DNA of 64,000 nucleotides from Bradyrhizobium sp. RD5-C2. Its GTDB lineage: Bacteria > Pseudomonadota > Alphaproteobacteria > Rhizobiales > Xanthobacteraceae. The stretch is taken from positions 186,001 to 250,000 of the forward strand of contig NZ_BOVL01000005.1 of NCBI RefSeq assembly GCF_019972155.1, in the 5' to 3' direction. The translations under genes and the position numbers were made by a program. Of this stretch, positions 39,857-57,725 are shown piece by piece (position 1 is the stretch's first letter; every line of letters starts with the position of its first letter). The notes beneath the pieces are model-generated. The model ran no database searches. It was not told where the DNA came from and saw nothing but the letters and a program-made list of their open reading frames with translations.

Positions 39857-39883
39857 TGTCGGGTGCTGTTTTTCCCGCCCGTC
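39857..39883 (+). promoter_or_regulatory. Predicted ECF42-type promoter (DHFR-like gene)
   Basis: TGTCGG (39857-39862), a 17-bp spacer, and CGTC (39880-39883) lie 37 bp upstream of the ATG at 39921. The layout is identical to five other sites in the window. Confidence 0.7.
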
Positions 39884-39920
39884 TTCCGTAAGGTCTCTCA
39901 ACCTACGGAAGTGGAATATC

Positions 39921-40571
39921 ATGGGAAAAGTCAGGACTTCGGCATTCTCGGTCTCGATCGACGGATTTGGCGCGGCACCGCGTCAGAGCCTCGAAAATCC
40001 ATTCGGCGAAGGCGGCATGGTGTTGCCCGGCTGGTTCCTCCAGACGCGGACGTTCCGCCAGACCTTCGGCCAGGACGGCGGCAGCACCGGGCTCGATGAC
40101 GAGATTGCGCGCAAAGCGATGGAAAATATCGGCGCCTGGATCCTCGGGCGGAACATGTTCGGCCCGATCCGCGGGCCGTGGCCGGATCATGCCTGGAAGG
40201 GCTGGTGGGGCGCCAATCCGCCGTATCACACGCCGGTGTTCGTGCTGACCCATCACGCGCGGCCTGACATCGAAATGGAAGGCGGCACCACGTTTCATTT
40301 CGTGACCGACGGCATTCACGCCGCGCTCGAGCGGGCGCGCGCCGTTGCGGGGGACAAGGACATCCGGGTCGGTGGCGGCGTGTCGCTGGTGCGCCAATTC
40401 CTTCAGGCACGTCTGCTCGACGAGGTGCAACTGGCGCTGTCGCCGGTGCTGCTCGGCTCGGGCGAGAATCTGTTCGCGGGCCTCGATCTGCCTGCGCTCG
40501 GCTATGGCGTCGTCTCGCATGTCGCGAGCCCGAACGCCACCCACGTCACCTTCGCGCGCAAGACATCCTGA
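39921..40571 (+). CDS. Dihydrofolate reductase-like (RibD C-terminal family) protein
   Basis: This 216-residue protein has the DHFR/RibD fold: VSIDGFGAAP at the N-terminus, WILGRNMFGP, then IRVGGGVSLVRQFLQARLLDE for the nucleotide site and LALSPVLLGSGENLF. Members of this group are widespread small reductases of unknown substrate, often in stress or resistance clusters. The ATG at 39921 is used. A predicted ECF42 promoter lies 38 bp upstream. Confidence 0.87.
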   Translation: MGKVRTSAFSVSIDGFGAAPRQSLENPFGEGGMVLPGWFLQTRTFRQTFGQDGGSTGLDDEIARKAMENIGAWILGRNMFGPIRGPWPDHAWKGWWGANPPYHTPVFVLTHHARPDIEMEGGTTFHFVTDGIHAALERARAVAGDKDIRVGGGVSLVRQFLQARLLDEVQLALSPVLLGSGENLFAGLDLPALGYGVVSHVASPNATHVTFARKTS

Positions 40572-40635
40572 ACGGTTCACACCTGCGTCAGCGGCCAAAA
40601 TTGGCCGTTGACGCGACCCGCCGTTCGGTCGTATT

Positions 40636-40656
40636 TAACCCATAGGTTATTTAACC
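40636..40656. promoter_or_regulatory. ArsR-type operator
   Basis: TAACC-CATA-GGTTA (40636-40649) is a perfect palindrome, followed at once by another TAACC (40652-40656). It is 15-35 bp upstream of the ArsR gene, consistent with autorepression. Confidence 0.6.
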
Positions 40657-40670
40657 GATGAGCTAAGTAC

Positions 40671-41075
40671 ATGCCGCTCGATCCCCTCACTTCGACCTTC
40701 GCGGCGCTGGCCGATCCGACCCGGCGCGCGATCCTGGCGCGGCTCGCGCTCGGCGAGACCTCGGTGATGGAGCTGGCAAAGCCGTTCGACATGAGCCTGC
40801 CGGCGATCTCCAAGCACCTGAAGGTGCTGGAGCATGCCGGGTTGATCTCGCGCGGGCGCGAGGCGCAGTGGCGGCCGTGCCGCATCGCGCCTGCTTCGTT
40901 CAAGCAGGTTGATGGCTGGCTCGGGAATTTCCGCCGCTTCTGGGACGAGAGCTTCAACCGCCTCGACGGTCTGCTCGAGGAGATGAAGGCGGAGGAGGCC
41001 GCAAAGGCCCCGCCGCACACCACCCGTAAAGTCAGAGTAAAGAAGGAGAAGCAACGTGGACGCACGCGTGGATAA
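40671..41075 (+). CDS. ArsR-family transcriptional regulator
   Basis: This 134-residue winged-helix repressor starts LTSTFAALADPTRRAILARL and has recognition helix DMSLPAISKHLKVLEHAGLI. It lacks the Cys metal site of arsenic sensors and belongs to the ArsR type paired with AHSA1/SRPBCC genes. Its last 20 bp overlap the AHSA1-like gene, so they form one translationally coupled operon. A TAACC-N4-GGTTA palindrome lies just upstream. Confidence 0.92.
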   Translation: MPLDPLTSTFAALADPTRRAILARLALGETSVMELAKPFDMSLPAISKHLKVLEHAGLISRGREAQWRPCRIAPASFKQVDGWLGNFRRFWDESFNRLDGLLEEMKAEEAAKAPPHTTRKVRVKKEKQRGRTRG

Positions 41076-41547
41076 GACGCTGAGGATCACCACCCCGTCG
41101 GATTTCGAGTTCGCCATGACGCGCCAGTTCGACGCGCCGCGGCGGTTCGTGTTCGACGCCATGACGAAGCCCGAATACGTCGTGCGTTGGCTCGGCTGCG
41201 AGCAGCTCACAATGCCGGTGTGCGAGATCGACCTGCGCGTCGGCGGCGCCTACCGGTTCGTGTTCCGGTCGTCCGACGGCGTCGAGCACATCCTCACCGG
41301 CACCTATCGCGAAGTGGTGCGCCCGGAGCGGCTGGCATTCGGCGAGATCTTTGCGATGCCGGGCTTCACCAGCGACGAATATCTCGTCATCTCGACCTTC
41401 GTCGAGGAAGGCGGCACCACTACGCTGACCACCACCATCCGCCATCCCACCAAGGAGGCCCGTGACGGTCATCTCAATTCCGGCATCGACAAGGGCGTCG
41501 AGCCCGCCTACGACCGGCTCGCGGAGATCGTTGCCGAGATGGGTTGA
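41056..41547 (+). CDS. AHSA1-like SRPBCC-domain protein
   Basis: This 163-residue single-domain protein has the START/SRPBCC fold signatures: FAMTRQFDAPRRFVFDAMT, then EYVVRWLGCEQL and AYRFVFRSSDGVE. Such proteins bind hydrophobic ligands, and the function here is unknown. The start is GTG at 41056 with AAGGAG upstream, overlapping the ArsR reading frame. Co-transcription with ArsR suggests its expression responds to the repressor's ligand. Confidence 0.88.
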   Translation: MDARVDKTLRITTPSDFEFAMTRQFDAPRRFVFDAMTKPEYVVRWLGCEQLTMPVCEIDLRVGGAYRFVFRSSDGVEHILTGTYREVVRPERLAFGEIFAMPGFTSDEYLVISTFVEEGGTTTLTTTIRHPTKEARDGHLNSGIDKGVEPAYDRLAEIVAEMG

Positions 41548-41599
41548 GGCCTTGGCCGAGAGTTGCGCTTCGCCAGCGAAGCGCTGCTCCATCAACATG

Positions 41600-41722
41600 G
41601 TCGTCCCTGCGAAAGCAGGGACCCATACCCCGCGGCCGGTGTAGTGAAACAGACTCGTCGTTCCACTATCGCGCGTCGATAAGCATCGGTGGTTATGGGT
41701 CCCTGCTTTCGCAGGGACGACA
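41600..41722. repeat. Palindromic intergenic repeat, family D
   Basis: Arms GTCGTCCCTGCGAAAGCAGG (41600-) and CCTGCTTTCGCAGGGACGAC (-41722) enclose about 70 bp between convergent genes. Confidence 0.78.
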
Positions 41723-41727
41723 CTGCC

Positions 41728-42693
41728 TCAATACCCCCGCGTGCGATCGACCAGGTTCTCCAACTCTCCGCCTTGCTCGAAGCGCGCGATCTGCTGAGCG
41801 ACGTATTTCGAGATCTCGTCGGCGTCGGTGTCGGCGGCGTTGTGCGGCGTCAGCACCACCTTCGGATGGCTCCAGAACGGGCTGTCTTGCGGCAGCGGCT
41901 CGGTCTCGTAGACGTCGAGCGAGGCGGCGCCCAGCGTGCCGTCGTCGAGTGCGCGCAAAATGTCCGATTCGTTCTGCAATCCGCCGCGGCCGGCATTGAT
42001 GATGACGGGCGCGCCGAGCGGGCTCTCGCGGTTCAGTTTCGCGAACGCGTCGCGATTCAGCACGTGGCGGGTATCGGGCGTCAGCGGCAGCAGGCAGACC
42101 AGGATGTTGGTCTCGCGCAGGAACGCGTCCAGCCCCTCGGTGCCGTGGTGGCAGGCGACGCCGTCGATCCGCTTCTCGCTGCGGCTCCAGCCGACGACGC
42201 GGAAGCCGAGCGCGCGCAGCGCATGCGCCGAGGCCGCGCCGAGCGTGCCGAGCCCCATCACGCCGACAGTGATCGCGCTTGCCGCCCATTGATAGTCCGG
42301 GGCCCAGCGCTTCGCTCGCTGCGACTCCCGCAGGTAAAGCTCCTGGCGGTGATGCATCAGCACATGCAGCACGACATATTCGGTCATGCGGTCGGTGAGA
42401 TCGCCGACCGCGACCCGCACCAGTGGCACATCGGGCAGCGAGCGGTCGGCCATCAGCGCGTCGACGCCGGCGCCGAGATTGAAGATGACGCGGAGGTTCT
42501 TGAACGCCGCGAGTTCGCCCGGCTTCGGCTTCCACACCGCGGCATAGTGCACCTCGGCGGGATCGAGCGCGCCGTCCGGCAGCAGCACCACGGGGCGGTC
42601 CGGGCAGGCCGTGTCGAATCGCGCCTTCCAGCGCGCCGACGACCAGTTTTCCGAGCCGCCATTGATCAGCAGCGCCAGTGCGCCTTTGCCCAT
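41728..42693 (-). CDS. D-2-hydroxyacid dehydrogenase, glyoxylate/hydroxypyruvate reductase A type
   Basis: This 321-residue protein has the NAD(P)-binding motif VGVMGLGTLGAASAHAL near residue 137. Active-site Arg, Glu and His lie in NAGRGGLQNESD, LDVYETEPLPQ and LTPHNAAD. The length and the FNLGAGVDAL segment match GhrA-like enzymes, which reduce glyoxylate and hydroxypyruvate. A perfect CRP-type palindrome lies 21 bp upstream of its start in the divergent promoter region. Confidence 0.9.
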   Translation of the reverse strand: MGKGALALLINGGSENWSSARWKARFDTACPDRPVVLLPDGALDPAEVHYAAVWKPKPGELAAFKNLRVIFNLGAGVDALMADRSLPDVPLVRVAVGDLTDRMTEYVVLHVLMHHRQELYLRESQRAKRWAPDYQWAASAITVGVMGLGTLGAASAHALRALGFRVVGWSRSEKRIDGVACHHGTEGLDAFLRETNILVCLLPLTPDTRHVLNRDAFAKLNRESPLGAPVIINAGRGGLQNESDILRALDDGTLGAASLDVYETEPLPQDSPFWSHPKVVLTPHNAADTDADEISKYVAQQIARFEQGGELENLVDRTRGY

Positions 42694-42713
42694 CCGGATA
42701 CCTCCAATTTCAA

Positions 42714-42729
42714 TGTGATATAGATCACA
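42714..42729. promoter_or_regulatory. Perfect CRP/FNR-family palindrome
   Basis: TGTGATATAGATCACA matches TGTGA-N6-TCACA with 6-bp perfect arms (TGTGAT/ATCACA). It sits between the GhrA-like gene (leftward) and a small exported-protein gene (rightward), 21 bp and 53 bp from their starts. Confidence 0.7.
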
Positions 42730-42782
42730 GAGCGAGCCTGGCTCGCTCCCTAGTCTCCTGCCATCAACCGGGGAGAACTTCC

Positions 42783-43070
42783 ATGCGCAAGCTGATCCTG
42801 ATCTCGGCTTTCATCGCAGCCACCGCCACCACCGCGCACGCCGGCCAGAGCCGCGGCCTGGTGCTCGCAAATGCCGACACGCCAGCTCAGGCGCAACCGG
42901 CCGTTGCGCCCGCTCCGGCCGAAGCCCAGCCGGCCCCGTCGCAGGCCCAGTCGGCCGAGGCCCCGCGGCCGCAGGCGTCGCGGCCGGTGAAGAGGAGCCA
43001 GGCCAGCCGCCGGGAGAGCGACGAGGCCAAGGCGCGCCGGATCGCCGCTCGTTACGGCGTCTATTGGTGA
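42783..43070 (+). CDS. Small exported Ala/Pro/Gln-rich protein
   Basis: This 95-residue protein has a signal peptide (MRKLILISAFIAATATTAHA), an Ala/Pro/Gln-rich middle, and a basic C-terminus (AKARRIAARYGVYW). No domain is recognised. The GGGGAG ribosome-binding site precedes the ATG. It is divergent from the GhrA-like gene across the CRP-type palindrome. Confidence 0.65.
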   Translation: MRKLILISAFIAATATTAHAGQSRGLVLANADTPAQAQPAVAPAPAEAQPAPSQAQSAEAPRPQASRPVKRSQASRRESDEAKARRIAARYGVYW

Positions 43071-43205
43071 TCGCAGCATCGTTGCCACGGTGATGACCTG
43101 ACGCGCCATCGCTGTGGCCTCAGCCTTCAGTCTGTCGCGACGCGCCATGAAACGTCGGCCCAATCCATCGCCGGCATCCGGAACCTAAATTTCTTTCGCG
43201 CCGCC

Positions 43206-43232
43206 TGTCGGCAGCGGGCATAATCGTTCGTT
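43206..43232 (+). promoter_or_regulatory. Predicted ECF42-type promoter (DGPF-sigma operon)
   Basis: TGTCGG (43206-43211), 17 bp, then CGTT (43229-43232), 27 bp before the DGPF gene start. The last base of the -10 element differs from the other five sites (CGTT, not CGTC). It would place the sigma operon under its own control. Confidence 0.6.
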
Positions 43233-43259
43233 CTTGCAATGAACGGAGATGCCTTTTCG

Positions 43260-43628
43260 ATGCTGTACGCCATCCTCTGCTATCATGACGAAGACATGGT
43301 CGGTTCCTGGAGCAAGGAGCACGACGCCTCGGTCATGCAGAAATTGTCGGTCGTGCAGGACAAGCTCGCCAAGCAGGGCCGGCTCGGCCCGGTGGCGCGG
43401 CTGCTGCCGACCACCGCGGCGACCACGCTGCGCAAGGAAAACCCGCCGCTGGTGCTCGACGGCCCGTTCGCCGAAACCAAGGAGCAGCTGCTCGGCTTCT
43501 ATCTGGTGGAGGGCAAGAACCTCGACGAGGTGCTCGACATCGCGCGCGACCTCGGCGAGGCCAATCCCGGCGGCACCTATGAGATCCGCCCGGTCGGCTA
43601 CTTCAATCAGGGGGGCACGAAGGCGTGA
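43260..43628 (+). CDS. DGPF-motif YCII-family protein linked to ECF42 sigma factor
   Basis: This 122-residue ferredoxin-like-fold protein has the DGPF signature (VLDGPFAETKEQLLGFYLVE, motif at 67-70) and a C-terminal YEIRPVGYF strand. DGPF proteins are the conserved genomic partners of ECF42 sigma factors, though their biochemical role is unsettled. The gene overlaps the sigma-factor start by GTGA (43625-43628). I chose the ATG at 43260; one at 43239 is possible. Confidence 0.88.
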   Translation: MLYAILCYHDEDMVGSWSKEHDASVMQKLSVVQDKLAKQGRLGPVARLLPTTAATTLRKENPPLVLDGPFAETKEQLLGFYLVEGKNLDEVLDIARDLGEANPGGTYEIRPVGYFNQGGTKA

Positions 43629-44902
43629 GCATGACCGACACCGCCTGGATCGATGCCGCGCTCACGTCGGCGCGTCCCCAGGCGGTTGGCGCGCTGCTGC
43701 GCTACTTCCGCAATCTCGATACCGCCGAGGAGGCCTTCCAGAACGCCTGCCTGCGGGCGCTGAAGAGCTGGCCACAGAACGGCCCGCCGCGCGATCCCGC
43801 GGCGTGGCTGATCATGGTTGGCCGCAATGTCGCGATCGACGACATCCGGCGCGGCAAGAAGCAGGAGCCGTTGCCCGACGATGACCAGGCGATCTCCGAC
43901 CTCGGCGATGCCGAGGAAGAGCTCGCCGAGCGCCTCGACGGTTCGCATTACCGCGACGACATCCTGCGGCTCTTGTTCATCTGCTGCCACAAGGACCTGC
44001 CGGCGACGCAGCAGATCGCGCTCGCGCTGCGCATCGTCTCCGGTCTGTCGGTGAAGCAGATCGCGCGCGCCTTCCTGGTCTCGGAAGCCGCGATGGAGCA
44101 GCGCATCACGCGGGCCAAGACCCGCGTCGCCGACGCCGATGTGCCGTTCGAGACGCCGGGCGCGGTCGAGCGCAGCGAGCGGCTCGTCTCGGTCGCCGCG
44201 ATGATCTATTTGATCTTCAACGAGGGCTATTCGGCGAGCGGCGACACCGCTCAAATTCGCTCGCCGCTGTGCGAGGAGGCGATCCGGCTGGCCCGCCTGC
44301 TGCTGCGGCTGTTCCAGAGCGAGCCGGAGATCATGGGGCTGACGGCGCTGTTGCTGTTGCAGCACGCCCGCGCCGCCGCGCGGTTCGACGCCGATGGCGC
44401 GGTGATCCTGCTCGACGACCAGGACCGCAGCCTGTGGAACCAGAAGCTGATCGCCGAAGGCCTCGCGCTGATCGACAAGGCGATGCGTCATCGCCGCAGC
44501 GGGCCCTATCAGGTGCAGGCCGCGATCGCCGCACTCCATGCCCGCGCGGAAAAGCCCGAGGATACCGACTGGACCCAGATCGACCTGCTTTATGGCGCGC
44601 TCGAGATCATGCAGCCGTCGCCGGTGATCACGCTCAATCGCGCCGTTGCGGTCTCCAAGGTGAAGGGGCCGGAAGCCGCGCTCGAGATGATCGAGCCGTT
44701 AGCGCCGCGGCTCTCCAATTATTTCCACTATTTCGGCGTGCGCGGCGCCTTCCTGATGCAGCTCGGCCGCAACGAGGAGGCCCGCGTCACGTTCGACCGC
44801 GCCATCGCGCTCGCCAACACCACCGCCGAAGCCGCCCATATCCGCATGCATATCGACCGCCTGATGCGCGACAGCCAGCCGCGCAATGTGAAGGCGAAGT
44901 AG
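43625..44902 (+). CDS. ECF42-type RNA polymerase sigma factor with TPR-like C-terminal extension
   Basis: This 425-residue protein is far longer than a typical 180-residue ECF sigma factor. It has region 2 (about 17-85: AEEAFQNACLRALKSW, NVAIDDIRRGKK), region 4 (about 125-170: LSVKQIARAFLVSEAAMEQR), then a helical extension starting with YLIFNEGYSASGD (195-207). This is the architecture of group ECF42, in which the extension replaces an anti-sigma factor. It is coupled to the DGPF gene upstream. Six TGTCGG-N17-CGTC-like sites in the window are its predicted promoters. GTG 43625 or ATG 43631 may be the start. Confidence 0.9.
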   Translation: MSMTDTAWIDAALTSARPQAVGALLRYFRNLDTAEEAFQNACLRALKSWPQNGPPRDPAAWLIMVGRNVAIDDIRRGKKQEPLPDDDQAISDLGDAEEELAERLDGSHYRDDILRLLFICCHKDLPATQQIALALRIVSGLSVKQIARAFLVSEAAMEQRITRAKTRVADADVPFETPGAVERSERLVSVAAMIYLIFNEGYSASGDTAQIRSPLCEEAIRLARLLLRLFQSEPEIMGLTALLLLQHARAAARFDADGAVILLDDQDRSLWNQKLIAEGLALIDKAMRHRRSGPYQVQAAIAALHARAEKPEDTDWTQIDLLYGALEIMQPSPVITLNRAVAVSKVKGPEAALEMIEPLAPRLSNYFHYFGVRGAFLMQLGRNEEARVTFDRAIALANTTAEAAHIRMHIDRLMRDSQPRNVKAK

Positions 44903-44948
44903 TCAGCCAGAGCTTGCGTTGCTCCAAGCTGAGAGACTTCCCGCATGA

Positions 44949-45113
44949 ACCCCTCTCCCTAACCCTCTCCCGCAAGGGGAGAGGGAACCCCTCCGCCGGT
45001 GCTTCCCTCACGTCGGATTATCAAGCGCTGAAATTTTGTGAACGAGCGCAAGTGAGGTGAGCGCGCTCGACAGGCTCCCTCCCCCCTTGTGGGGGAGGGT
45101 TGGGGAGAGGGGT
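44949..45113. repeat. Composite family F repeat region
   Basis: Two family F hairpins (44949-44993 with CCCTCTCCCGCAAGGGGAGAGGG; 45073-45113 with CCCTCCCCCCTTGTGGGGGAGGG) occupy most of the 355-bp gap after the sigma factor. The rest of the gap holds the ECF42-like promoter of the DoxX gene and no other gene that I can see. Confidence 0.7.
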
Positions 45114-45190
45114 AAGCCCCGGGCGAGCTGACCGATGTGTGCGTCGCTCTCGCAACTCTGGTCGCGGCTGCGAAAAATCTTCACCGCCCT

Positions 45191-45217
45191 TGTCGGCCCC
45201 GCGCTCCTCCGTTCGTC
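45191..45217 (+). promoter_or_regulatory. Predicted ECF42-type promoter (DoxX operon)
   Basis: TGTCGG (45191-45196), 17 bp, CGTC (45214-45217), 40 bp upstream of the DoxX-like gene start. Confidence 0.7.
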
Positions 45218-45257
45218 ATGAAGGCAGAGAGCATCACCAAGCGTTACGGAGCCTGCC

Positions 45258-45668
45258 ATGCCGACGATCGTCGACACCGAAATCTCGAAGCCCGCCCGCA
45301 TCACTGGCCGCGTCGTCAGCGGCGTGGTCGTCCTTTTCCTGTTGTTCGATGGCGCCATCAAGCTGTTGCCATTGCCCGTCGTCACCGAGACCATGGACAA
45401 GATGGGCTTTGGTGCGAGCGATACGCTGGCGCGCAGCCTCGGCATCATCACCATCGTCTGCACGCTGCTGTACTCGGTGCCGCCGACCTCGATCCTCGGC
45501 GCCATCCTGCTCACCGGCTATCTCGGCGGCGCGATCGCGTCCCATGTGCGGATCGGCAGCCCGCTGTTCAGCCACACCCTGTTCGGGCTCTATCTCGGCC
45601 TGATGGTGTGGGGCGGGCTCTATCTGCGCGACGGCAATCTGCGTGCGCTGCTTCCGTTCCGCCGCTGA
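45258..45668 (+). CDS. DoxX-family membrane protein
   Basis: This 136-residue protein has four predicted membrane helices (VVSGVVVLFLLFDGAIKLL; LGIITIVCTLLYSV; ILGAILLTGYLGGAIASHV; LFGLYLGLMVWGGLYL). This is the pattern of small DoxX-like proteins associated with redox stress. It starts 41 bp after a predicted ECF42 promoter and is followed 34 bp later by an SRPBCC gene in the same direction. Confidence 0.85.
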   Translation: MPTIVDTEISKPARITGRVVSGVVVLFLLFDGAIKLLPLPVVTETMDKMGFGASDTLARSLGIITIVCTLLYSVPPTSILGAILLTGYLGGAIASHVRIGSPLFSHTLFGLYLGLMVWGGLYLRDGNLRALLPFRR

Positions 45669-45702
45669 GCTATCATCTCAATTGATCTACCTGGAGACCA
45701 TC

Positions 45703-46239
45703 ATGTTCGAGACCATTGCCATCATCGCGGTCATCCTCGCGATTGCGATTGCCGTCATCCTCGTCCTCGCGGCGACCAAGCCGAGCACGTTCCGCGTCAC
45801 GCGTGCGACCAGTATCAATGCGCCGGCGGAACGGATCTTTCCATTGATCGACGATTTCCGGCAGTGGACGGTCTGGTCGCCTTACGAGAACCGGGACCCG
45901 GCCATGAAGCGCAGCTATGACGGCGCCGGGCGCGGGCAGGGGGCGGTCTATGCCTGGGACGGCAACAAGAATGTCGGCACCGGTCGCATGGAGATCCTGC
46001 AATCGTCCGCGCCGTCGAAGGTCGTCATCAAGCTCGACTTCCTCAAGCCGTTTGAGGGCCACAACACCGCCGAGTTCACAATGCTGCCGCAGGGAGATGC
46101 GACCAGCGTCACATGGACGATGTATGGTCCGGCCGTCTTCATGTCGAAGGTGATGCAGGTGTTCATGAACCTGGATCACATGATCGGCAAGGATTTCGAG
46201 GTCGGTCTCGCCAATCTGAAGAAGCTGACTGAAAAATAG
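45703..46239 (+). CDS. Membrane-anchored SRPBCC-domain protein
   Basis: This 178-residue protein begins with a single membrane helix (IAIIAVILAIAIAVILVLAA). It continues with an SRPBCC/polyketide-cyclase domain (TRATSINAPAERIFPLIDD, WSPYENRDPAMKRSY, then KDFEVGLANLKK). The anchor suggests it binds a lipid-like ligand at the inner membrane. It is probably co-transcribed with the DoxX-like gene and thus part of the predicted ECF42 regulon. Confidence 0.85.
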   Translation: MFETIAIIAVILAIAIAVILVLAATKPSTFRVTRATSINAPAERIFPLIDDFRQWTVWSPYENRDPAMKRSYDGAGRGQGAVYAWDGNKNVGTGRMEILQSSAPSKVVIKLDFLKPFEGHNTAEFTMLPQGDATSVTWTMYGPAVFMSKVMQVFMNLDHMIGKDFEVGLANLKKLTEK

Positions 46240-46298
46240 CAAGCGTTTTCGAGCGAAGTGGTTACCGGTTCGCGCGAAGAAAACGCCTCAAACGAAAA
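46239..46298. repeat. Dispersed intergenic repeat, family B
   Basis: GCGTTTTCGAGCGAAGTGG...ACCGGTTCGCG...GAAAACGC is a recognisable Rhizobiales-type dispersed element with GCGTTTTC/GAAAACGC inverted ends. It lies between the SRPBCC and VOC genes. Confidence 0.6.
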
Positions 46299-46318
46299 TC
46301 TACCCCAGGGAGCATGTG

Positions 46319-46729
46319 ATGCAGGTCAACCCCTATCTCTCTTACGACGGCAATTGCGGCGCCGCGCTGAACTTCTACCAGAAGGTTCTCGGTGCGCGGA
46401 TCGAGGAATCCTATCCTTACGGCGAGGGTAATCCGGAGATGCAGACGCCGCCCGGATGGAAGGACAAGATCATGCACGCCCGGGTCTCGATCGACGGCGA
46501 GATCATCATGGCCTCCGATGCCCCGCCCGGCCACTTCCAGAAGCCGCAAGGGTTTCACGTCTCGCTGCAGGTCGAGGATCCCGCGGAAGCCGAGCGCCGC
46601 TTCAAGGCGCTGTCCGAAGGCGGCACCGTCACCATGCCGTTCGGCAAGACCTTCTTCTCCAACGGTTTTGGCATGTGCGTCGATCAGTTCGGCATCCCCT
46701 GGATGGTGAACTGCCCGCAGCAGATGTAG
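46319..46729 (+). CDS. PhnB-like VOC-superfamily protein
   Basis: This 136-residue protein matches the PhnB/3-demethylubiquinone-methyltransferase-like VOC group: NPYLSYDGNCGAALNFYQKV, MHARVSIDGEIIMASD, GGTVTMPFGKTFFSNGFG and DQFGIPWMVN. Metal ligands are not conserved as in true glyoxalases, and the function is unknown. The start is ATG 46319 with AGGGAG upstream; GTG 46316 is possible. It may be the last gene of the DoxX/SRPBCC unit. Confidence 0.86.
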   Translation: MQVNPYLSYDGNCGAALNFYQKVLGARIEESYPYGEGNPEMQTPPGWKDKIMHARVSIDGEIIMASDAPPGHFQKPQGFHVSLQVEDPAEAERRFKALSEGGTVTMPFGKTFFSNGFGMCVDQFGIPWMVNCPQQM

Positions 46730-46751
46730 TCACGCGACAACCCGATTGGAC

Positions 46752-46884
46752 CGTCATCCTGAGGTGGCCGCTCCTTCAGCGGCCCTCGAAGGATGGACGG
46801 CCCGGCTGGTGGCCGTGCATCCTTCGAGGCTCGCAAGGGCTCGCACCTCCAGCGACAATGGCGTTGCCATTGCGCGGGGATGAC
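46752..46884. repeat. Palindromic intergenic repeat, family C
   Basis: CGTCATCCTGAGGTGGCCGC at the left and a rearranged CTCGAAGGATG...CATCCTTCGAGG palindrome in the middle lie between convergent genes. Confidence 0.7.
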
Positions 46885-46900
46885 GGGACGGAGAGCGCGC

Positions 46901-50567: not shown

Positions 50568-50652
50568 CGTCATTGCGAGGAGCCTCAGCGACGAAGCAAT
50601 CCATTTCTCCGCTTGCGGCGCGATGGATTGCTTCGCTTCGCTCGCAATGACG
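50568..50652. repeat. Palindromic intergenic repeat, family G
   Basis: CCGTCATTGCGAGGAGC and its inverted partner GCTCGCAATGACGG bound a palindrome containing GCAATCCAT/ATGGATTGC. Confidence 0.72.
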
Positions 50653-50670
50653 GAGAGAGGATCCGCGTTG

Positions 50671-51459
50671 CTACCCATTCCGACGCTGGCCGCGCAGGGT
50701 CGGCAGGCCGATGCCGGCGGCGTCGAAGCCGCCGTCGACGGCGAGGATCTGGCCGGTGATGTAGCTGGCGCGATCCGAGCACAGGAAGAAGATCGCTTCC
50801 GCCAGCTCCTCCTCCAGCCCGTAGCGGTTGAGCGGGATGGCGTCGTGATAGTCGGCGCGGATCTCGGGCGTGTGCACGGCCTTGGCCATCGCGGTCTCGA
50901 CCGGCCCGGGTGCGACGCCGTTGACGCGGATGCCGAGCGAGGCGAGCTCCACCGCAAGCTGCTTGGTGAGGTGCGCAAGCCCGGCCTTGCTGGTGCCGTA
51001 GGCCGAGCGCAGCGTCGAGGCGCGCACCGCCGAGATCGAGGTGATGTTGACGATCGCGCCGCCGCCATGCTCGCGCATCACAGGCGCGGCCGCCTTGGTG
51101 CACAGGAACGGGCCGGTGAGGTTGACCGCCATGATCCGGTTCCAGTCGGCGTCCGAGGTCTCCAGCACCGGCGTGAACACGGCGATGCCGGCGTTGTTGA
51201 CCAGCGCGTCGAGCCGGCCGAAGCGGCTCGTGATCGCAGCGATCGCGGCCGCCACGCCAGCGGCGTCCGATACGTCGCAGGTCAGCGCCAGCGTCGCGTC
51301 AGGCTGCTTCAATGCCGCGACCGCGCTCTCCAGCAGCGCGCCCTCGATGTCGAGCAGCGCGACGCGCCAGCCGTCGGCGAGAAAGCGTTTCGCGGCGGCG
51401 AGCCCGATACCGCGCGCGGCGCCGGTCACGAGTGCGACTTTGGGGGAAGCGGAATTCAT
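50671..51459 (-). CDS. SDR-family oxidoreductase
   Basis: This 262-residue classical short-chain dehydrogenase has the cofactor motif TGAARGIG, the NNAG motif, and catalytic Ser and Tyr-x-x-x-Lys in ITSISAVRA and YGTSKAG. It also has PGPVETAM. NAD(P)-dependent oxidation or reduction of an alcohol/ketone is expected, and the substrate is unknown. The ATG at 51459 is used; 51471 is an alternative. Confidence 0.9.
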   Translation of the reverse strand: MNSASPKVALVTGAARGIGLAAAKRFLADGWRVALLDIEGALLESAVAALKQPDATLALTCDVSDAAGVAAAIAAITSRFGRLDALVNNAGIAVFTPVLETSDADWNRIMAVNLTGPFLCTKAAAPVMREHGGGAIVNITSISAVRASTLRSAYGTSKAGLAHLTKQLAVELASLGIRVNGVAPGPVETAMAKAVHTPEIRADYHDAIPLNRYGLEEELAEAIFFLCSDRASYITGQILAVDGGFDAAGIGLPTLRGQRRNG

Positions 51460-51547
51460 CGGATGGTCCATCGGTTCGGGCAGCAAGCCCCGACCGTCTG
51501 CGACCTTTACTCCGACGTGTCAACCCGATGGGGATTCTTCGTCATTC

Positions 51548-51610
51548 GGGGCGCGTCTCGAAGGATGCACGGCCACCAGCCCGGTCCGTCCATCCTTCGA
51601 GGATCGCACC
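51548..51610. repeat. Palindromic intergenic repeat, family C (partial)
   Basis: CGTCTCGAAGGATGCACGGC...TCCATCCTTCGAGGATCG is the inner palindrome of family C without the outer arms, next to the stop codon of the triple-PAS receptor. Confidence 0.65.
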
Positions 51611-51615
51611 GCAAC

Positions 51616-53286
51616 CTACGCCGCGAGCTCGGCGGAGGCGCGCTGCATGTTTGTCGACATGTCCTGCGTGACGATGCTCTGCTCCTCGACCGCGGCGGCG
51701 GTGGAGGTGATGTATTCGTTGACGCCGGCGATCGCCGCCTTGATCTCGGACAGCGAGGTCACCACTTCGGCAGCGATCGAGTTCAGCGCATCGATCTCCG
51801 AGGAGATCGTGTCGGTCGCCTGCTTGGCCTGGTTGGCGAGGCTCTTCACCTCTGAGGCCACCACCGCGAAGCCGCGGCCGGCTTCGCCCGCACGTGCCGA
51901 TTCGATCGTGGCGTTGAGCGCGAGCAGGTTGATCTGCCCGGTGATGCTCGAGATCATCTCGACGATGCCGCTCATCGCCTGTGCTGCGGCGTTGAGCTTC
52001 TGCGCCTGTCCGTCGGCAGCCTCGACGCGGCCGCTGGCGACCGCGGCGTTCTGCTTCGACTTGGTCATGGTCTCCGAGATCTCGCGGATCGAGGCGCTCA
52101 TCTCCTCGCTGCCGGCGGCAACCGCCTCGATCAGGCCGCGCGCGCTGTCGGCCTTCTTGCGGCCGATCGCCTGCGCGGTGATGTCGGTGGCGTATTTCAC
52201 CACCTTGTAGGGTTTGCCGTTGAGATCGAGGATCGGGTTGTAGGAGGCCTGGATCCAGATCTCGCGGCCGCCCTTGGCGATGCGCTTGTATTCGGCGGCC
52301 TGGAACTCGCCGCGGTTCAGCGCCCCCCAGAACTCGCGGTAGCCCGACGAACTCGCCTCGACCGGCTCGACGAACATGCTGTGATGTTTGCCCTGAATCT
52401 CGGCGAGCAGATAGCCCATCGCGGCGAGGAAGTTCGGGTTCGCGGTGCGGATCGTGCCGTCCATGTTGAACTCGATCACAGCTTGCGACTTGCCGATGGC
52501 GTCGATCTGGCCGTCATTGTCGGCGGCCTTCAGCTTCTGCTGCGTGACGTCGGTTGCGAACTTGACGACCTTGAACGGTTTGCCGCGGTCGTCGAGGATC
52601 GGGTTGTAGCTGGCGAGAATCCAGATCTCCTTGCCACCCTTGGCGACCCGCTTGAACTCGCCGGTCTCGAACTCGCCGCGGTTCAGCCGTGCCCAGAAAT
52701 CGCGATAGGCCGGGCTGTCGCGGTCGGCCGGCGGCATGAACATGCTGTGATGCTTGCCCTGAATCTCGGCGAGCGAGTAACCCATCGCGCCGAGGAAGTT
52801 CTCGTTGGCATTGACGATGGTGCCGTCCATGTTGAACTCGATCACCGCCTGCGCGCGGCCGATCGCGGCGATCTTGCCGGCGTCTTCCATGCTGTGGATC
52901 TTCTGCGCGGTGATGTCGGTGGCGAACTTGATGACGCCGACCGGCTTGCCGTTCTTGTCCGTGATCGGATTGTAGGAGGCCTGGATCCAGACCTCGCGGC
53001 CGCCCTTGGCAACGCGCTTGTACTGGGCGGCCTGGAATTCGCCGCGGTTGAGGCTCGCCCAAAACGCGCGATAGTCGTGGCTGTCGCGATACGCCGGCTC
53101 GACGAACATGCTGTGGTGCTTGCCCCTGATCTCGTCGAGCGAGTAGCCCATCGCGTTCAGGAAGTTTTCGTTCGCGGTGACGATGGTGCCGTCGAGCTTG
53201 AACTCGATCACCGCCTGCGATTTGCCGATCGCTGCGGCTTGCGCCAGCGCACTGTCGATGTTTGCCTTGTTGCTGAAACTGAACAT
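51616..53286 (-). CDS. Soluble chemoreceptor with three tandem PAS domains
   Basis: This 556-residue protein has three near-identical PAS-PAC units of about 122 residues starting near 20, 142 and 264. Each contains (S/A)QAVIEF, ANxNFLxAMGY, GKHHSMF, NRGEF and WIxASYNPI. An MCP signalling domain (about 385-556) follows with [20 protein letters not shown]. There is no membrane span, so it is a cytoplasmic Aer-like receptor. The HHSMF and SYNP blocks match PAS domains proposed to bind heme or flavin, but the cofactor is not certain. Confidence 0.92.
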
Positions 53287-53771
53287 CAGGGCTCCGTGAA
53301 GTTTCAAATGAAACGGGATGGGAAATTGGATTGACGCAACTCACGGAAAGGTTGCAGCGAGCCGTTTAGCATCGGTAAAGCCTGCGGCCTGGCACGGACT
53401 GCACAATGCAGCGCGGCGCGCGCGCATCTATCTCAGATTGCGAAGTAATTTTCTGATGTGCACGCTATCATCCATAGTCGTGATGCGATGTTCACCGTAA
53501 TCTTACGGACGAAAATTGGTGACAACTTTGGTCTGGTGCGGATGATCGCAACGCGTCTACTTCAGCGCCGCTGATAGACCTATTACGAACGTTGATATTG
53601 CTGACTGCTTCACGGATCGATTCAGCACCGCGATTCGCGTGCTCAACGAATGCGCGTCGCGTCGATGCCCGCTCTCGGCGCCGGGCGATGGGCAAAAAAA
53701 TTTCCGCACGAGATGTCGGCAGAGCGGTTTCCGGTCCGTCCTCCGGGTACTGGTTCCACAATGGAGTTCTG
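53287..53771. other. Intergenic region (485 bp) between divergent chemoreceptor and GST genes
   Basis: I see no convincing ORF. It contains a small palindrome CCGTAA-TC-TTACGG (53495-53508) and the predicted ECF42-type promoter of the GST gene at 53714-53740. The region is less GC-rich around 53440-53540. Confidence 0.5.
53714..53740 (+). promoter_or_regulatory. Predicted ECF42-type promoter (GST gene)
   Basis: TGTCGG (53714-53719), 17 bp, CGTC (53737-53740), 31 bp upstream of the GST start at 53772. Confidence 0.7.
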
Positions 53772-54425
53772 ATGTCACTGACCCTGCATTACCACCCGCT
53801 GTCCTCGTTCTGCTGGAAGGCGCTGGTCGCACTTTACGAGAACGGCGCGCCGTTCACGCCGAACATGGTCAATCTCGGCGATCCCGCCGAGCGCGCGGCG
53901 CTGCTCTCGCTGTCGCCGATCGGCCGGTTTCCCGTCCTCCACGACGAAACGCGCGGCGAGGCGGTGCCTGAATCGAGCATCGTCATCGAGTATCTCGACC
54001 GGCACTATCCCGGCACCGTCAAGTTGATTCCCGACGACCCGGAGCTTGCGTTGCAGACCCGGCTGCGTGACCGCTTCCTCGATCTCTATGTCCATCTGCC
54101 GTTGCAGAAGATCGTCGGCGACCGGCTGCGTCCGGCGGACAGCAAGGATCCGCGGGGCGTCGCCGAGGCGCGGGCGCAGCTCCGCACCTCCTATGCGACC
54201 CTGGATCAGCAGCTCGCGCATGGTGGCTGGATGATGGGCGAGCAGGTCTCGCTGGCAGACTGTGCGGCCGCGCCGGCGCTGTTCTACGGCAACAAGGTCG
54301 AGCCGATCGGGGAGGGCCATCCACATCTGGCGGCCTATCTCGAGCGGCTGAAGGCACGACCGTCCTTCGCGCGCGTCCTCAAGGAAGCCGAGCCCTATTT
54401 CGGCATGTTCCCCAAGGGGGACTGA
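53772..54425 (+). CDS. Glutathione S-transferase family protein
   Basis: This 217-residue protein has a thioredoxin-like N-domain (LHYHPLSSFCWKALVALYE; GRFPVLHDE; VPESSIVIEYLD) and a helical C-domain (GWMMGEQVSLADCAAAPAL). The SSFC motif gives a Ser/Cys active site. GGAG precedes the ATG. It is the first of a run of small rightward stress enzymes and is preceded by a predicted ECF42 promoter. Confidence 0.9.
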   Translation: MSLTLHYHPLSSFCWKALVALYENGAPFTPNMVNLGDPAERAALLSLSPIGRFPVLHDETRGEAVPESSIVIEYLDRHYPGTVKLIPDDPELALQTRLRDRFLDLYVHLPLQKIVGDRLRPADSKDPRGVAEARAQLRTSYATLDQQLAHGGWMMGEQVSLADCAAAPALFYGNKVEPIGEGHPHLAAYLERLKARPSFARVLKEAEPYFGMFPKGD

Positions 54426-54480
54426 ACCGACAAGGGAACCTGAGGCTCGGTCAGGACCCCGAAAATAAATCGCGGCGCGA

Positions 54481-54507
54481 TGTCGCTTTCGCGCCGCTCC
54501 GTTCGTC
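54481..54507 (+). promoter_or_regulatory. Predicted ECF42-type promoter (SnoaL-like/serine hydrolase pair)
   Basis: TGTCGC (54481-54486, last base differing), 17 bp, CGTC (54504-54507), 72 bp upstream of the SnoaL-like gene. Confidence 0.6.
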
Positions 54508-54579
54508 TTCTCCCTGAAGCCCGGGTTCTGGAGCGCAAGTCGCGCCCCGGGGCTCGGGCGGCACTTTGTGGGAGACGAC

Positions 54580-54951
54580 ATGGCTGCAGCTGGCAACAGG
54601 GCGGAGATCATCCGCGGGCTCTTCGCCGCCTATCTCGCCAATGACCGTGCGAGCGTCGAGGCCGCATTCGCCGAGAATTTCCGCTTCTCGACGCCCTATG
54701 GCGAGAACATCGACAAGCCGCGTTATTTCGCCGAGTGCTGGCGCGACTCTGGCTGGATCGGCCGCCACGAGATCGAGCGCATCATGGTCGAAGGCGTTGA
54801 GGCTTTCGTCACCTATCGCTGCGTCGCCCGCGACGGCAAGAGTTTCCGCAACACCGAGTTCTTCGTGTTCGACGGCGACAAGGTGTCGCGCATCGACGTC
54901 TATTTCGGTCCGTCGCATCAGGATGGCGAACTCGTCAGGCAGGATCGATAA
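54580..54951 (+). CDS. SnoaL/NTF2-like protein
   Basis: This 123-residue cone-shaped alpha+beta protein has AEIIRGLFAAYLANDRASVE, FRFSTPYGENIDK and a C-terminal DVYFGPSH strand. It belongs to the SnoaL-like NTF2 superfamily, and the activity is not predictable. The ATG at 54580 follows GGGAG; GTG 54568 would add four residues. It is followed after 70 bp by the serine hydrolase gene. Confidence 0.82.
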   Translation: MAAAGNRAEIIRGLFAAYLANDRASVEAAFAENFRFSTPYGENIDKPRYFAECWRDSGWIGRHEIERIMVEGVEAFVTYRCVARDGKSFRNTEFFVFDGDKVSRIDVYFGPSHQDGELVRQDR

Positions 54952-55021
54952 GGCAAACTCGGTCATATCGCTCGCCCGATGGTCGCAGGCGAGCACGAAT
55001 TCTGCGAAGGAAACCCGGAAA

Positions 55022-56227
55022 ATGTCCATTGCAAGTGAAAGCAGCGGTCTGTCGCAGGCACGGCTCGGACGCATGCGCGAGGTGCTGGCGCGCCATGTCG
55101 AAGACGACGACGTTCCGGGCCTCGTGGCGCTGGTCAGCCGTCGCGGCGAGATCCATGCCGATGTGCTTGGCCGCATGGCTATCGACGGGCCGCCGATGCA
55201 GCGCGACACCATCTTCCGCATCGCCTCGATGACCAAGCCGGTGACAGCGGTCGCCGCGATGATCCTGGTCGAGGAATGTCGGCTCAGGCTCGATGATCCC
55301 CTCGATCGCTGGCTGCCCGAACTCGCCGATCGCCGTGTGTTGCGCACCATCGAATCCGAGATCCACGACACGGTGCCGGCCAAGCGCGCGATCACGCTGC
55401 GCGACCTTCTGACCTTCCGTCTCGGGCTCGGCATGATCCCGGTGTTTCCGGCGCGCTATCCGATCCAGATGGCGATCGCGGATGCCGGCTTCGCGCCCGG
55501 GCCAGTGTTTCCGTCGTTTCCGCCGGACGAATTGCTGCGCCGCTACGGCACGCTGCCGCTAGCCTATCAGCCCGGCGAACGCTGGCTCTACAACACCGGG
55601 AGCCAGATCCTCGGCGTGTTGATCGCGCGTGTCGCAGGAACGTCGTTCGCGGGCTTCCTGGAAGAGCGGATCTTCGGGCCGCTCGGCATGAACGATACGG
55701 CGTTCCATGTGCCGCAGCACAAGCTGTCGCGGTTGGCGACGTGCTATGGCGGCGATCCTGCGACCGGCACGCTGAAAGTATTCGACGAACCTGCGACCGG
55801 CAGATACGCGGCGCCGCCGGTGTTCGAGAACGGCGGCGCCGGGCTGGTGTCGACCGCGGATGATTTCAACGCCTTCGCGCAGATGCTGCTCAATGGCGGG
55901 CGGCTCGGCACCGAGCGCATCCTGTCGCGTCCCTCGGTGGAACTGATGACTTCGAACCAGATCACGCCGGAGCAGAAACATGGCTCCGAATTCTTGCTCG
56001 GTTCGTGCGGCTGGGGTCTCGGGCTGTCGGTGTTCACCGCGCGCGACGATCTCTGTCATGTGCCGGGTCGCTACGGCTGGGACGGCGGCTATGGCACCTC
56101 CTGGTATTCCGATCCGCGCGAAACGATGACCGGAATCCTGCTGACCCAGCGCATGATGGATTCGCCGGAGCCGCCCAGGGTGTTCTCAGATTTCTGGACG
56201 CTCGCCTATCAGGCGATCGATGACTAG
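55022..56227 (+). CDS. Beta-lactamase-family serine hydrolase (class C/esterase EstB-like)
   Basis: This 401-residue protein has the serine beta-lactamase fold: SxxK in ASMTKP near residue 76, a YxN-like motif in LYNTGSQ, and WDGGYGTSW near the C-terminus in the place of the KTG motif. Its length and motif 3 suggest an esterase or D-peptidase rather than a resistance enzyme. It has no signal peptide, so it is probably cytoplasmic. Confidence 0.88.
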   Translation: MSIASESSGLSQARLGRMREVLARHVEDDDVPGLVALVSRRGEIHADVLGRMAIDGPPMQRDTIFRIASMTKPVTAVAAMILVEECRLRLDDPLDRWLPELADRRVLRTIESEIHDTVPAKRAITLRDLLTFRLGLGMIPVFPARYPIQMAIADAGFAPGPVFPSFPPDELLRRYGTLPLAYQPGERWLYNTGSQILGVLIARVAGTSFAGFLEERIFGPLGMNDTAFHVPQHKLSRLATCYGGDPATGTLKVFDEPATGRYAAPPVFENGGAGLVSTADDFNAFAQMLLNGGRLGTERILSRPSVELMTSNQITPEQKHGSEFLLGSCGWGLGLSVFTARDDLCHVPGRYGWDGGYGTSWYSDPRETMTGILLTQRMMDSPEPPRVFSDFWTLAYQAIDD

Positions 56228-56271
56228 CGCGGGGCGTACGTCAATGACCTCGAGAATAATTTCAAACGCCG

Positions 56272-56298
56272 TGTCGGAATTGCAGACTCTGCATCGTC
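56272..56298 (+). promoter_or_regulatory. Predicted ECF42-type promoter (YCII gene run)
   Basis: TGTCGG (56272-56277), 17 bp, CGTC (56295-56298), 52 bp upstream of the first of three YCII-family genes. Confidence 0.7.
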
Positions 56299-56350
56299 GT
56301 TCAATCGAGCGCCGGTGCTGAGATCGGCACATAGACAACGGAGCAGGACG

Positions 56351-56767
56351 ATGAAGTTCATGGTGATCGTGAAGGCGAACAAGGATACCGAGGCCGGCGT
56401 GATGCCGAGCACCGAGCTGCTCGCCGCGATGGGCAAGTTCAACGAGGAGATGGTCAAGGCCGGCGTGATGCAGGCCGGCGAGGGCCTGCATCCGACCAAC
56501 AAGGGCGCACGCGTCAAATATTCCGGCGGGCAGAGCACCGTGAGCCACGGACCGTTCAGCCCGACCGGAGATATGGTCTGCGGCTTCTGGCTGATCGAGA
56601 CCTCCTCGCTCGATGAAGCGATCGACTGGATGAAGCGCGCGCCGTTCGGCGGCGGCTCCGAGATCGAGATCCGCCAAGTGTTCGCCGCGGAGGATTTCGG
56701 CGAGGCGCTGACGCCCGAGCTGCGCGAGCAGGGAGAGCGCCTGCGCGCGCAGGCCGGAAAGAAGTAA
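56351..56767 (+). CDS. YCII-family protein with HGPF variant of the DGPF motif
   Basis: This 138-residue dimeric ferredoxin-like protein starts MKFMVIVKANKDTEAG and has GEGLHPTNKGARVKYSGG. HGPF (66-69) stands in place of DGPF, then CGFWLIETSSLDEAIDWM. It belongs to the DGPF/YCII group linked to ECF42 sigma factors. It is preceded by a predicted ECF42 promoter and followed by two more YCII genes with gaps of 85 and 81 bp. Confidence 0.88.
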   Translation: MKFMVIVKANKDTEAGVMPSTELLAAMGKFNEEMVKAGVMQAGEGLHPTNKGARVKYSGGQSTVSHGPFSPTGDMVCGFWLIETSSLDEAIDWMKRAPFGGGSEIEIRQVFAAEDFGEALTPELREQGERLRAQAGKK

Positions 56768-56852
56768 TGATTTCGTCAATCCGGGCCTGCGCATCCCGGA
56801 ATGACGAGGGGAAAGAGTCACACGCGATTCAACAGACAAGGAAGTCCGACCA

Positions 56853-57278
56853 ATGCGTTTCATGATGCTGATGATCCCGCTCGGCTACGAGTCCGCGCCG
56901 GCCAAACTCGAGCTCGACCCGGAACGGGTCGCCGCGATGATGCGATACAATCAGGCGCTGAAGGACGCCGGCGTGCTGATCACGCTGGAAGGCCTGCATC
57001 CGCCGGCGTCAGGCGCGCGGGTCAAGTTCGATACCGGCGAGCCCATGGTGGTCGACGGCCCCTTCACCGAGGCCAAGGAAGTGATCGGCGGCTTCTGGAT
57101 GATCGAGGTCGCCTCGCGCGCGGAAGCGATCGAGTGGGCCAAGAAGTGCCCGGCCAGTGCGAACGAGATGATCGAGATCCGCCAGGTGCAGGAGATGGCG
57201 GATTTCTCCGAGGAAGTGCAGCAGGCGGCTTCGACCTTCGAGCATCCGCAGGGCGGCTGGGGCAAGGCGCTGCGCTAG
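56853..57278 (+). CDS. DGPF-motif YCII-family protein
   Basis: This 141-residue protein starts MRFMMLMIPLGYESAPAK and has the canonical VVDGPFTEAKEVIGGFWMIE block (DGPF at 68-71). It is a clear paralog of the gene upstream and probably co-transcribed with it. AAGGAAG precedes the start. Biochemical activity is unknown. Confidence 0.9.
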   Translation: MRFMMLMIPLGYESAPAKLELDPERVAAMMRYNQALKDAGVLITLEGLHPPASGARVKFDTGEPMVVDGPFTEAKEVIGGFWMIEVASRAEAIEWAKKCPASANEMIEIRQVQEMADFSEEVQQAASTFEHPQGGWGKALR

Positions 57279-57359
57279 ATCTCAAACGAGACGCGATGCC
57301 GCCGCAAAGCGGCATCGTGTGACCGACCGATCGTCAAACCACCACAACGGAGAAGCACG

Positions 57360-57725
57360 ATGAGCACCAACACTTACCTTGCCGTCTATCTCGGCGGCGG
57401 CAAAACCGGTTCGCGCATGACAGCCTGGAACGCGCTGCCGGAGGCCGAACGGCGTGCCAAGGAGCAGCAGGGCATGGCCGCGTGGGGCGCCTGGGTCGAG
57501 AAGCACCACGACGTGATCGTCGAGATGGGCGGACCGCTCGGCAACACCAAGCAGGTCGGCGCCGGCGGCACTGCCGACATCGCCAATCTGATGACCGGCT
57601 TCACTGTGGTGCGCGCGCCCTCGCATGAGGCGGCAGCAAAGCTGTTCGAGAACCACCCGCACTTTGCGATCTTCCCCGGCGAGGCCGTGGAGATCATGCC
57701 GGTGCTGCCGATCCCCGGGCGATAG
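57360..57725 (+). CDS. YCII-related protein
   Basis: This 121-residue protein carries a divergent YCII-like domain: YLAVYLGGGKTGSRM, EQQGMAAWGAWVEKHHDVIVEMGGPL, GFTVVRAPSHEAAAKLFENHP and FPGEAVEIMPVLPIP. It lacks the DGPF motif. It is third in the YCII run. Function unknown. Confidence 0.85.
   Translation: MSTNTYLAVYLGGGKTGSRMTAWNALPEAERRAKEQQGMAAWGAWVEKHHDVIVEMGGPLGNTKQVGAGGTADIANLMTGFTVVRAPSHEAAAKLFENHPHFAIFPGEAVEIMPVLPIPGR

Follow-up and report, generated by a model that had tools for sequence, protein, structure and literature searches.

Conserved TGTCGG-N17-CGTC promoters point to a genome-wide ECF42 sigma factor regulon in Bradyrhizobium sp. RD5-C2

The window analyzed here is a stretch of 64,000 nucleotides (positions are 1-based) from the 8.26 Mb genome of Bradyrhizobium sp. 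RD5-C2 (73 contigs), which encodes an extracytoplasmic function (ECF) sigma factor of the ECF42 type at 43625-44902 on the + strand. Around this gene lie six sites consisting of a TGTCGG -35 element, an exact 17-bp spacer (N17) and a CGTC -10 element, two of them with one base changed. The sites, their spacing, flanks and conservation, and the different cores of two paralogous sigma factors can be read directly from the DNA. On these grounds, we consider that the sites very probably belong to a real, conserved and genome-wide ECF42 regulon that is most likely run by the sigma factor at 43625. An initial annotation of the window had proposed that this sigma factor controls the genes behind the sites; conservation and the cores of the paralogs, an alternative that the annotation had not weighed, favor that proposal.

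Six promoter-like sites and their conservation

Exact TGTCGG-N17-CGTC sequences occur on the + strand at 39857, 45191, 53714 and 56272, and one-base variants at 43206 (CGTT) and 54481 (TGTCGC), exactly where the initial annotation had placed them. With the gene starts and ends accepted in this analysis, all six are intergenic, as it had also stated, and each precedes a gene on the same strand. In map order they represent predicted ECF42 promoters of a RibD_C/DHFR-like gene (P1, 39857-39883), of the DGPF-sigma operon (P2, 43206-43232, predicted to be autoregulatory), of a DoxX-SRPBCC-VOC run (P3, 45191-45217), of a glutathione S-transferase (GST) gene (P4, 53714-53740), of a SnoaL-serine hydrolase pair (P5, 54481-54507) and of a YCII run (P6, 56272-56298). 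The distances from the -10 end to the likely ATG are 37, 27, 40, 31, 72 and 52 nt, respectively, so that the position before the genes agreed with the annotation while its range of 28-73 bp became 27-72 nt. In 100 dinucleotide shuffles of the window, exact sites appeared 0.27 times on average and at most twice, in line with the earlier estimate of well under one chance occurrence.

We then compared the loci of close relatives of the sigma factor, taking the best 80 of 300 stretches that encode such a relative (316 matched; 74 of the 80 are titled Bradyrhizobium; 1.48 Mb in total). In these loci the spacer-17 pattern was found 220 times on the strand of the sigma gene and once on the other strand, and any other spacer from 8 to 28 gave at most 48 matches. 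Within 250 nt downstream of 208 of the 220 forward matches begins a homolog of a window gene (within 100 nt for 203), and 11 of the remaining 12 have an ATG in the next 110 bases. When sites were counted for each gene in the 130 nt preceding its orthologs, the exact site was present before RibD_C in 18/18, before the first YCII gene (YCII_1) in 24/24, before DoxX in 32/44 and before the window GST in 24/34 orthologs, and the sigma operon carried TGTCGG-N17-CGT[CT] in 73/80 (57 CGTC and 16 CGTT). The conservation in related genomes that the initial annotation had suggested checking is thus mostly kept in these five site-bearing genes. No site was detected upstream of orthologs of the neighboring TetR (0/63), ArsR (0/15), AHSA1 (0/15) and YCII_3 (0/33) genes, and inside the operon, directly before the sigma gene, there was no exact match in the 80 loci and one near match. 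Some members of the runs have exact sites of their own in other genomes, namely SRPBCC (17/50 orthologs), the second YCII gene (YCII_2, 17/41) and, in only 3/72 orthologs, VOC. From these counts, the promoter is tied to particular genes and can precede different members of a run.

The sequences flanking the core are also shared. Among 210 distinct sites, TT commonly precedes CGTC and [TC]T follows it, so that the -10 region usually reads TTCGTC[TC]T, and an A/T-rich tract lies 10-18 bases ahead of the -35 element, where it appears to resemble an UP element. The flank scores cited here derive from a matrix trained on sigma-operon promoters alone, which for the site at 43206 still means training on its own orthologs; another matrix trained on orthologs of the window sites was dropped because it was circular for those sites. 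The null tails of the six sites in map order were 0.0100, <0.0001, 0.0001, 0.0003, 0.0007 and 0.0001. Median tails of orthologs ranged from 0.0001 to 0.005 for RibD_C, DoxX, GST, YCII_1, YCII_2, SRPBCC and VOC, and were 0.025 for SnoaL and 0.30 for the serine hydrolase. Eight other + strand matches with one mismatch in the window gave full-flank tails of 0.026-0.97 (for the one at 3605, the upstream part alone reached 0.011), and the idea that all one-mismatch matches are promoters was rejected on this ground. The single one-mismatch match on the - strand, at 57796, was outside the flank scoring.

The motif in distant loci and across the class

The association extends beyond the close relatives. 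Among 30 more distant loci nearest to the window type (at least 67% identity), 27 carry TGTCGG-N17-CGTC upstream, in 26 cases between about -400 and -450 relative to the sigma gene; for one of the three loci that lack it, only 455 bases of the stretch were examined. In 155 more distant ECF42 loci, any form of TGTCGn-N17-CGn[CT] was present upstream in 100 and missing in 55, many of the latter coming from outside the class. We also counted the motif and a reversed control in 289 alphaproteobacterial genomes, using the domain DUF6596, which we take as a marker of ECF42. The counts were 785 versus 564 in the 48 genomes with DUF6596 and 1390 versus 1377 in the 241 genomes that lack it (rank test, p about 1e-5, with genomes treated without correction for kinship), and the excess was 6.6 per genome in the 22 genomes whose sigma factor has Glu at position 158 in the numbering of the window protein (E158 type). 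A Fisher value that takes kindred genomes as independent was set aside.

Many ECF42 loci from outside the class (among L217-L246 and L283-L342 of our locus set) had no TGTCGn-N17-CGn[CT] in the 1-1.2 kb upstream that was searched; promoters or operon layout may differ there.

Two paralogous sigma factors with other cores

A genome-wide search identified two further sigma factors with DUF6596, on contigs 26 and 19 (C26 and C19), which are 47% and 42% identical to the window sigma factor. Both are organized like the window system, with the sigma gene following one or more YCII-like genes, an N17 spacer in the promoter and an A/T tract ahead of the -35 element. Unlike the window sigma factor, however, they have their own cores: the operon promoter is TGTCGT-N17-CGAC in the C26-type operon (C26:154276, L045:6277) and TGTCGA-N17-CGTC in the C19-type operon (C19:770069, L046:6070). 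In 40 genomes of the genus, which returned 30 C26-type and 26 C19-type loci, these cores were found before the own operon in 30/30 and 25/26 loci, respectively. With other cores at the paralog operons, the sites in the window are better matched to the sigma factor encoded there.

These differences led us to consider a small promoter code that would keep the three sigma factors apart through base 6 of the -35 element (G, T and A for the window, C26 and C19 types) and base 3 of the -10 element (T, A and T), with each lineage keeping its code throughout the genus and the window lineage doing so class-wide as well. Glu158, located at the beginning of the recognition helix, may read base 6 in the TGTCGG lineage, which we offer as a hypothesis and not as a result; the code as a whole seems to us conceivable, if somewhat more doubtful than probable. 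For covariation analysis, 291 sigma factors were collected; the 61 that lacked an accepted site were left out, leaving 230, with one site chosen by a scoring rule where there were several. Position 158 was the column most informative on base 6 (0.96 bits), closely followed by columns with 0.92 and 0.91 bits. Glu158 goes with G in 108 sigma factors and with A in two, and G also occurs in three sigma factors that have no Glu there. In a tree of 103 representatives, residue 158 changes once and base 6 five times; since Glu arises only once, this is one event and gives no independent support. In the structure model Glu158 is located within the helix 154-170 of region 4, at a confidence of about 62. 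If the code holds, ECF42 would offer a naturally occurring collection of promoter-sigma pairs insulated from one another, and the three conserved cores permit a direct test of insulation between close paralogous sigma factors.

Two observations were made on C26-type loci. A second TGTCGT-N17-CGAC precedes the operon promoter by about 440-460 nt in L178 (about -799 before the sigma gene) and L181 (about -810), which suggests an additional target of the C26-type sigma factor in some species. In addition, two matches to the C26-type sigma factor contain one in-frame TGA (G320:C20:42012-43277 in L175 and G306:C25:397419-398681 in L179), possibly reflecting a broken gene, a start-site artifact or an assembly error.

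Candidate sites elsewhere in the genome

The exact pattern occurs 36 times in the genome, compared with 16 times for the reversed control, and four of the 36 are those in the window; by reading, 12 of the 36 are suitably placed before a gene. Outside the window, exact sites with good flanks precede a divergent pair of genes on contig C20, encoding a PhnB/VOC protein (tail 0.0003) and a GST (0.0017), a VOC gene on C12 (0.0003) and a DUF899 gene on C56 (0.0012), and a second PhnB/VOC gene on C19 is more weakly supported (0.025). Suitably spaced sites with poor flanks (0.09-0.21) precede an MFS gene and a SnoaL gene on C20 and a YCII gene on C56. The C20 GST has an ortholog in 28 of the 40 genus genomes (its own included), and in 20 of these 28 the ortholog has TGTCGG-N17-CGT[CT] within 140 nt. 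The regulon, which the initial annotation had described as local, is therefore spread over the genome and densest around the sigma gene, given these roughly five further supported sites.

Two looser searches were set aside. TGTCGN-N17-CGWC followed by ATG gave 99 hits versus 15 for the reversed control, many of them from an inverted repeat and from overlapping ATGs, and TGTCGS-N17-CGTY-YT followed by ATG gave 16 versus 1. Because reversal in the control extends to the ATG, which makes the comparison unfair, neither search was used for counts; hits of the second on C4, C5:448450, C12:412911, C21 and C59 were left unjudged.

Evidence against the regulon and other readings

A number of results weigh against a regulon of this extent or against its assignment to the sigma factor at 43625, and they bear on three other explanations. 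The first is that the sites arose by chance in GC-rich DNA or descend from short upstream regions that were duplicated. Loose matches are indeed common, and among the first 100 of 485 genome matches, spacers N14 to N20 were found 2, 19, 23, 10, 22, 19 and 5 times, so that N15, N16, N18 and N19 are all commoner than N17. This low rank is probably a codon-phase effect, N14 and N20 sharing the phase of N17. The bare 10-base pattern is nevertheless not specific at the genome scale, and the exact-match count was rejected as proof, on account of the spacer ranks and of the small share of exact sites that are suitably placed (12 of 36); position, flanks and conservation carry the case. The flank null was taken from random positions in the loci and not from intergenic positions; A/T-rich intergenic DNA in general would therefore also gain, and part of the flank signal may be that. 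In the class survey, the mean excess shrinks to 4.8 versus 0.9 (p 0.006) when only genomes with at least 10 motif and control matches are kept (47 and 122). Coincidence or duplication does not account for the exact spacer, the confinement to one strand, the upstream position or the gene-specific conservation around a variable spacer sequence in the related loci, nor for the association of the motif with ECF42 over the 289 genomes, and we give it next to no weight.

The second explanation is that only part of the six sites is live, the autoregulatory, DoxX, GST, RibD_C and YCII promoters being functional and the SnoaL variant TGTCGC being decayed or weak. One-mismatch sites are not enriched by count (15 in the window versus 9.85 expected, a number reached in 7 of 100 shuffles), and the two variants therefore need other support, which is provided by their flanks and by homologs with the same variants, TGTCGG/CGTT in the 16 sigma operons mentioned above and TGTCGC/CGTC in 5 of 31 SnoaL homologs. 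The SnoaL site is patchy: besides these five, five homologs have TGTCGG/CGTC, two are doubtful and 19 have no site, and only two of eight serine hydrolase homologs have a site of their own. The flanks of the SnoaL site in the window are good, however, and the five homologs with the full TGTCGG core carry it in the same upstream stretch, so that a dead or feeble P5 appears rather unlikely to us. Gaps are also seen at the other genes. No site precedes the window GST in 9/34 or DoxX in 8/44 orthologs, and 8 of the 28 C20 GST orthologs lack one, seven of which are 82-87% identical and thus closer than many site carriers. The site at 39857, although kept in all orthologs, has the weakest flanks of the six, and its upstream part alone gave a tail of 0.080.

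The third explanation accepts the sites as real ECF42 promoters and assigns them to the C26 or C19 paralog, or to all three sigma factors together. All three are encoded in this genome and their cores are set apart by no more than one or two bases. Moreover, genomes that have only other ECF42 types (26 genomes) still show a small TGTCGG excess of 2.9, compared with 6.6 for the E158 type (p 0.03). On the other side, the paralog operons hold to their different cores throughout the genus as the window lineage does to TGTCGG/CGT[CT], and the six sites cluster around the window sigma gene and keep or nearly keep its core. Control by the paralogs is thus very unlikely in our judgment, and we continue with the sigma factor at 43625 as the probable regulator.

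The sigma factor and its proposed role

The window protein, which is 99% identical to its counterpart in Bradyrhizobium sp. C9, contains sigma regions 2 and 4 according to Pfam (PF04542, 1.8e-12; PF08281, 2.1e-10), and several solved ECF sigma structures match its residues from about 7 to 170. DUF6596 (PF20239) occupies residues 186-287. In the AlphaFold2 model, the C-terminal extension is built of helical hairpins, with block means of the model confidence (pLDDT) of 70-94 over residues 221-390 and of 61-68 up to about residue 420; the model is unreliable at residues 1-123 and no more than fair in region 4 (about 62). The best Foldseek matches were TOM70 and many chains titled as tetratricopeptide repeat (TPR) proteins, with low TM-scores, and no Pfam TPR model matched at 0.001 or better; we describe the extension as TPR-like. 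A YCII/DGPF gene lies directly upstream of the sigma gene and has a homolog in all 80 related loci. These features bear out the initial annotation, which had recognized an ECF42 sigma factor with a C-terminal extension paired with a DGPF protein. Ten proteins encoded near the sites, a subset of the neighboring open reading frames, were scanned, and none of them showed an anti-sigma domain.

The closest mapped system is RpoE10 of Sinorhizobium meliloti, an ECF42 sigma factor whose promoters were determined by Lang et al. (2018; PMC6180224). In that paper, the promoter sequences of SMc01151, SMc01149 and SMb20475 each contain TGTCGG-N17-CGTC, the sigma gene follows a YCII-related gene, and the targets are a hydrophobic-ligand-binding protein, which would be SRPBCC-like, and glyoxalase-like proteins. 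The annotation had given a TGTCGA-like -35 and a CGTC-like -10 element for ECF42, and a TGTCGa/g-CGTC core with a 17-bp spacer fits these promoters. An A/T stretch also lies ahead of the SMb20475 promoter, as read from pSymB, and the VOC protein encoded behind this promoter is 53% identical to the C20 PhnB/VOC protein of our genome. The TGTCGG core has thus already been published, and the Bradyrhizobium regulon is a larger relative of the RpoE10 system, from which it differs in having about 11 promoters, all of them predicted, and in adding GST, DoxX, RibD_C, SnoaL, serine hydrolase, DUF899 and the YCII run. The window lineage has the TGTCGG -35 element at its sigma operon and Glu in its recognition helix, two traits that would mark an RpoE10-type clade within ECF42. 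In PMC6180224, RpoE10 overexpression raised six genes, four of which, in two operons, rose two-fold or more. SMc01151, the DGPF gene and the first of its operon, was not raised although it carries the motif, which leaves autoregulation uncertain in S. meliloti and counts among the points against our assignment. As for the claim that the window sigma factor controls itself, the operon promoter is conserved, which speaks for it, and the behavior of SMc01151 speaks against it.

In titles and abstract openings of the papers listed, with most subscription journals outside the search, we recognized no account of the Bradyrhizobium regulon or of the three cores. ECF42 sigma factors of the actinobacterium Streptomyces venezuelae reportedly have DGPF targets. 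According to PMC8999054, these proteins (Sven_0747, Sven_4377 and Sven_7131) likewise have a C-terminal extension that is rich in TPRs and about 200 residues long; the same review describes the extension as essential and proposes that it acts through a partner protein yet to be identified. Pseudomonas putida ECF-10, another ECF42 member, has a genomic context similar to that of RpoE10 (PMC6180224) and shows a stress and antibiotic phenotype (PMC6180224 and PMC8999054). The accessible text of PMC8103513 adds little on ECF42.

Taking the window sigma factor as the probable regulator, we propose that it would direct RNA polymerase to the TGTCGG -35 element, the 17-bp spacer and the CGTC or CGTT -10 element, with the A/T tract upstream. 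It would use the six promoters of the window, that of the DGPF-sigma operon which encodes it among them, and roughly five others, before the divergent GST and PhnB/VOC genes, one VOC gene, one DUF899 gene and, more weakly, the second PhnB/VOC gene; the MFS and YCII genes outside the window are perhaps targets as well. Its activity would probably be set by a partner binding to the TPR-like C-terminal extension, as proposed for ECF42 in the part of PMC8999054 cited above, and as a guess the partner might be the co-transcribed DGPF protein. Because the products mostly belong to families that handle small molecules (GST, glyoxalase/VOC, SRPBCC, SnoaL, DoxX, RibD_C, serine hydrolase and YCII), a response that protects the cell from small molecules of a reactive or xenobiotic kind is the likely role. 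Binding of the sigma factor to the sites, autoregulation, signal, partner and physiological role are all inferred here. As the signal and the interaction partner of ECF42 are described in the papers cited here as unidentified, the roughly 11 predicted promoters make a concrete list of reporters for an inducer search, and the gene behind one of them is a relative of an experimentally mapped target.

Genes behind the sites and other observations

All genes behind the six sites are on the + strand. The first encodes a RibD C-terminal/DHFR-like protein (39921-40571; PF01872, 9.3e-16). The sigma operon begins with a YCII/DGPF gene (43260-43628; PF03795, 3.9e-19, scanned from 43239) that encodes a DGPF stretch; the start at 43260 seems preferable to that at 43239 from the GGAGA ahead of it and the spacing. 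P3 precedes genes for a DoxX-like membrane protein (45258-45668; PF13564), an SRPBCC/polyketide-cyclase-like protein (45703-46239; PF10604) and a VOC/glyoxalase-like protein (46316-46729; PF00903). The GST gene (53772-54425; PF13417/PF13410, scanned from 53775) is followed by those for a SnoaL-like protein (54580-54951; PF12680) and a serine hydrolase/beta-lactamase-like protein (55022-56227; PF00144, scanned within the longer frame 54530-56227). The YCII run comprises three YCII-domain genes at 56351-56767 (PF03795, scanned from 56315), 56853-57278 (PF03795) and 57360-57725 (PF03795, 24.1 bits, the cut-off being 24).

In the space separating the AHSA1 gene from the one that follows, at 41601-41723, a GTCCCTGCTTTCGCAGGGAC-like element is present twice, the copies being inverted, and similar inverted repeats appeared elsewhere in the genome in the TGTCGN-N17-CGWC search. 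On the - strand, a long open reading frame at 51616-53307 contains repeated stretches that, by eye, look like tandem PAS-type units. Finally, a record titled Frankia sp. RB7 (JAUEPE010000010, L127) includes a sigma locus with 84% identity to that of Bradyrhizobium, and this record may be misnamed or contaminated.

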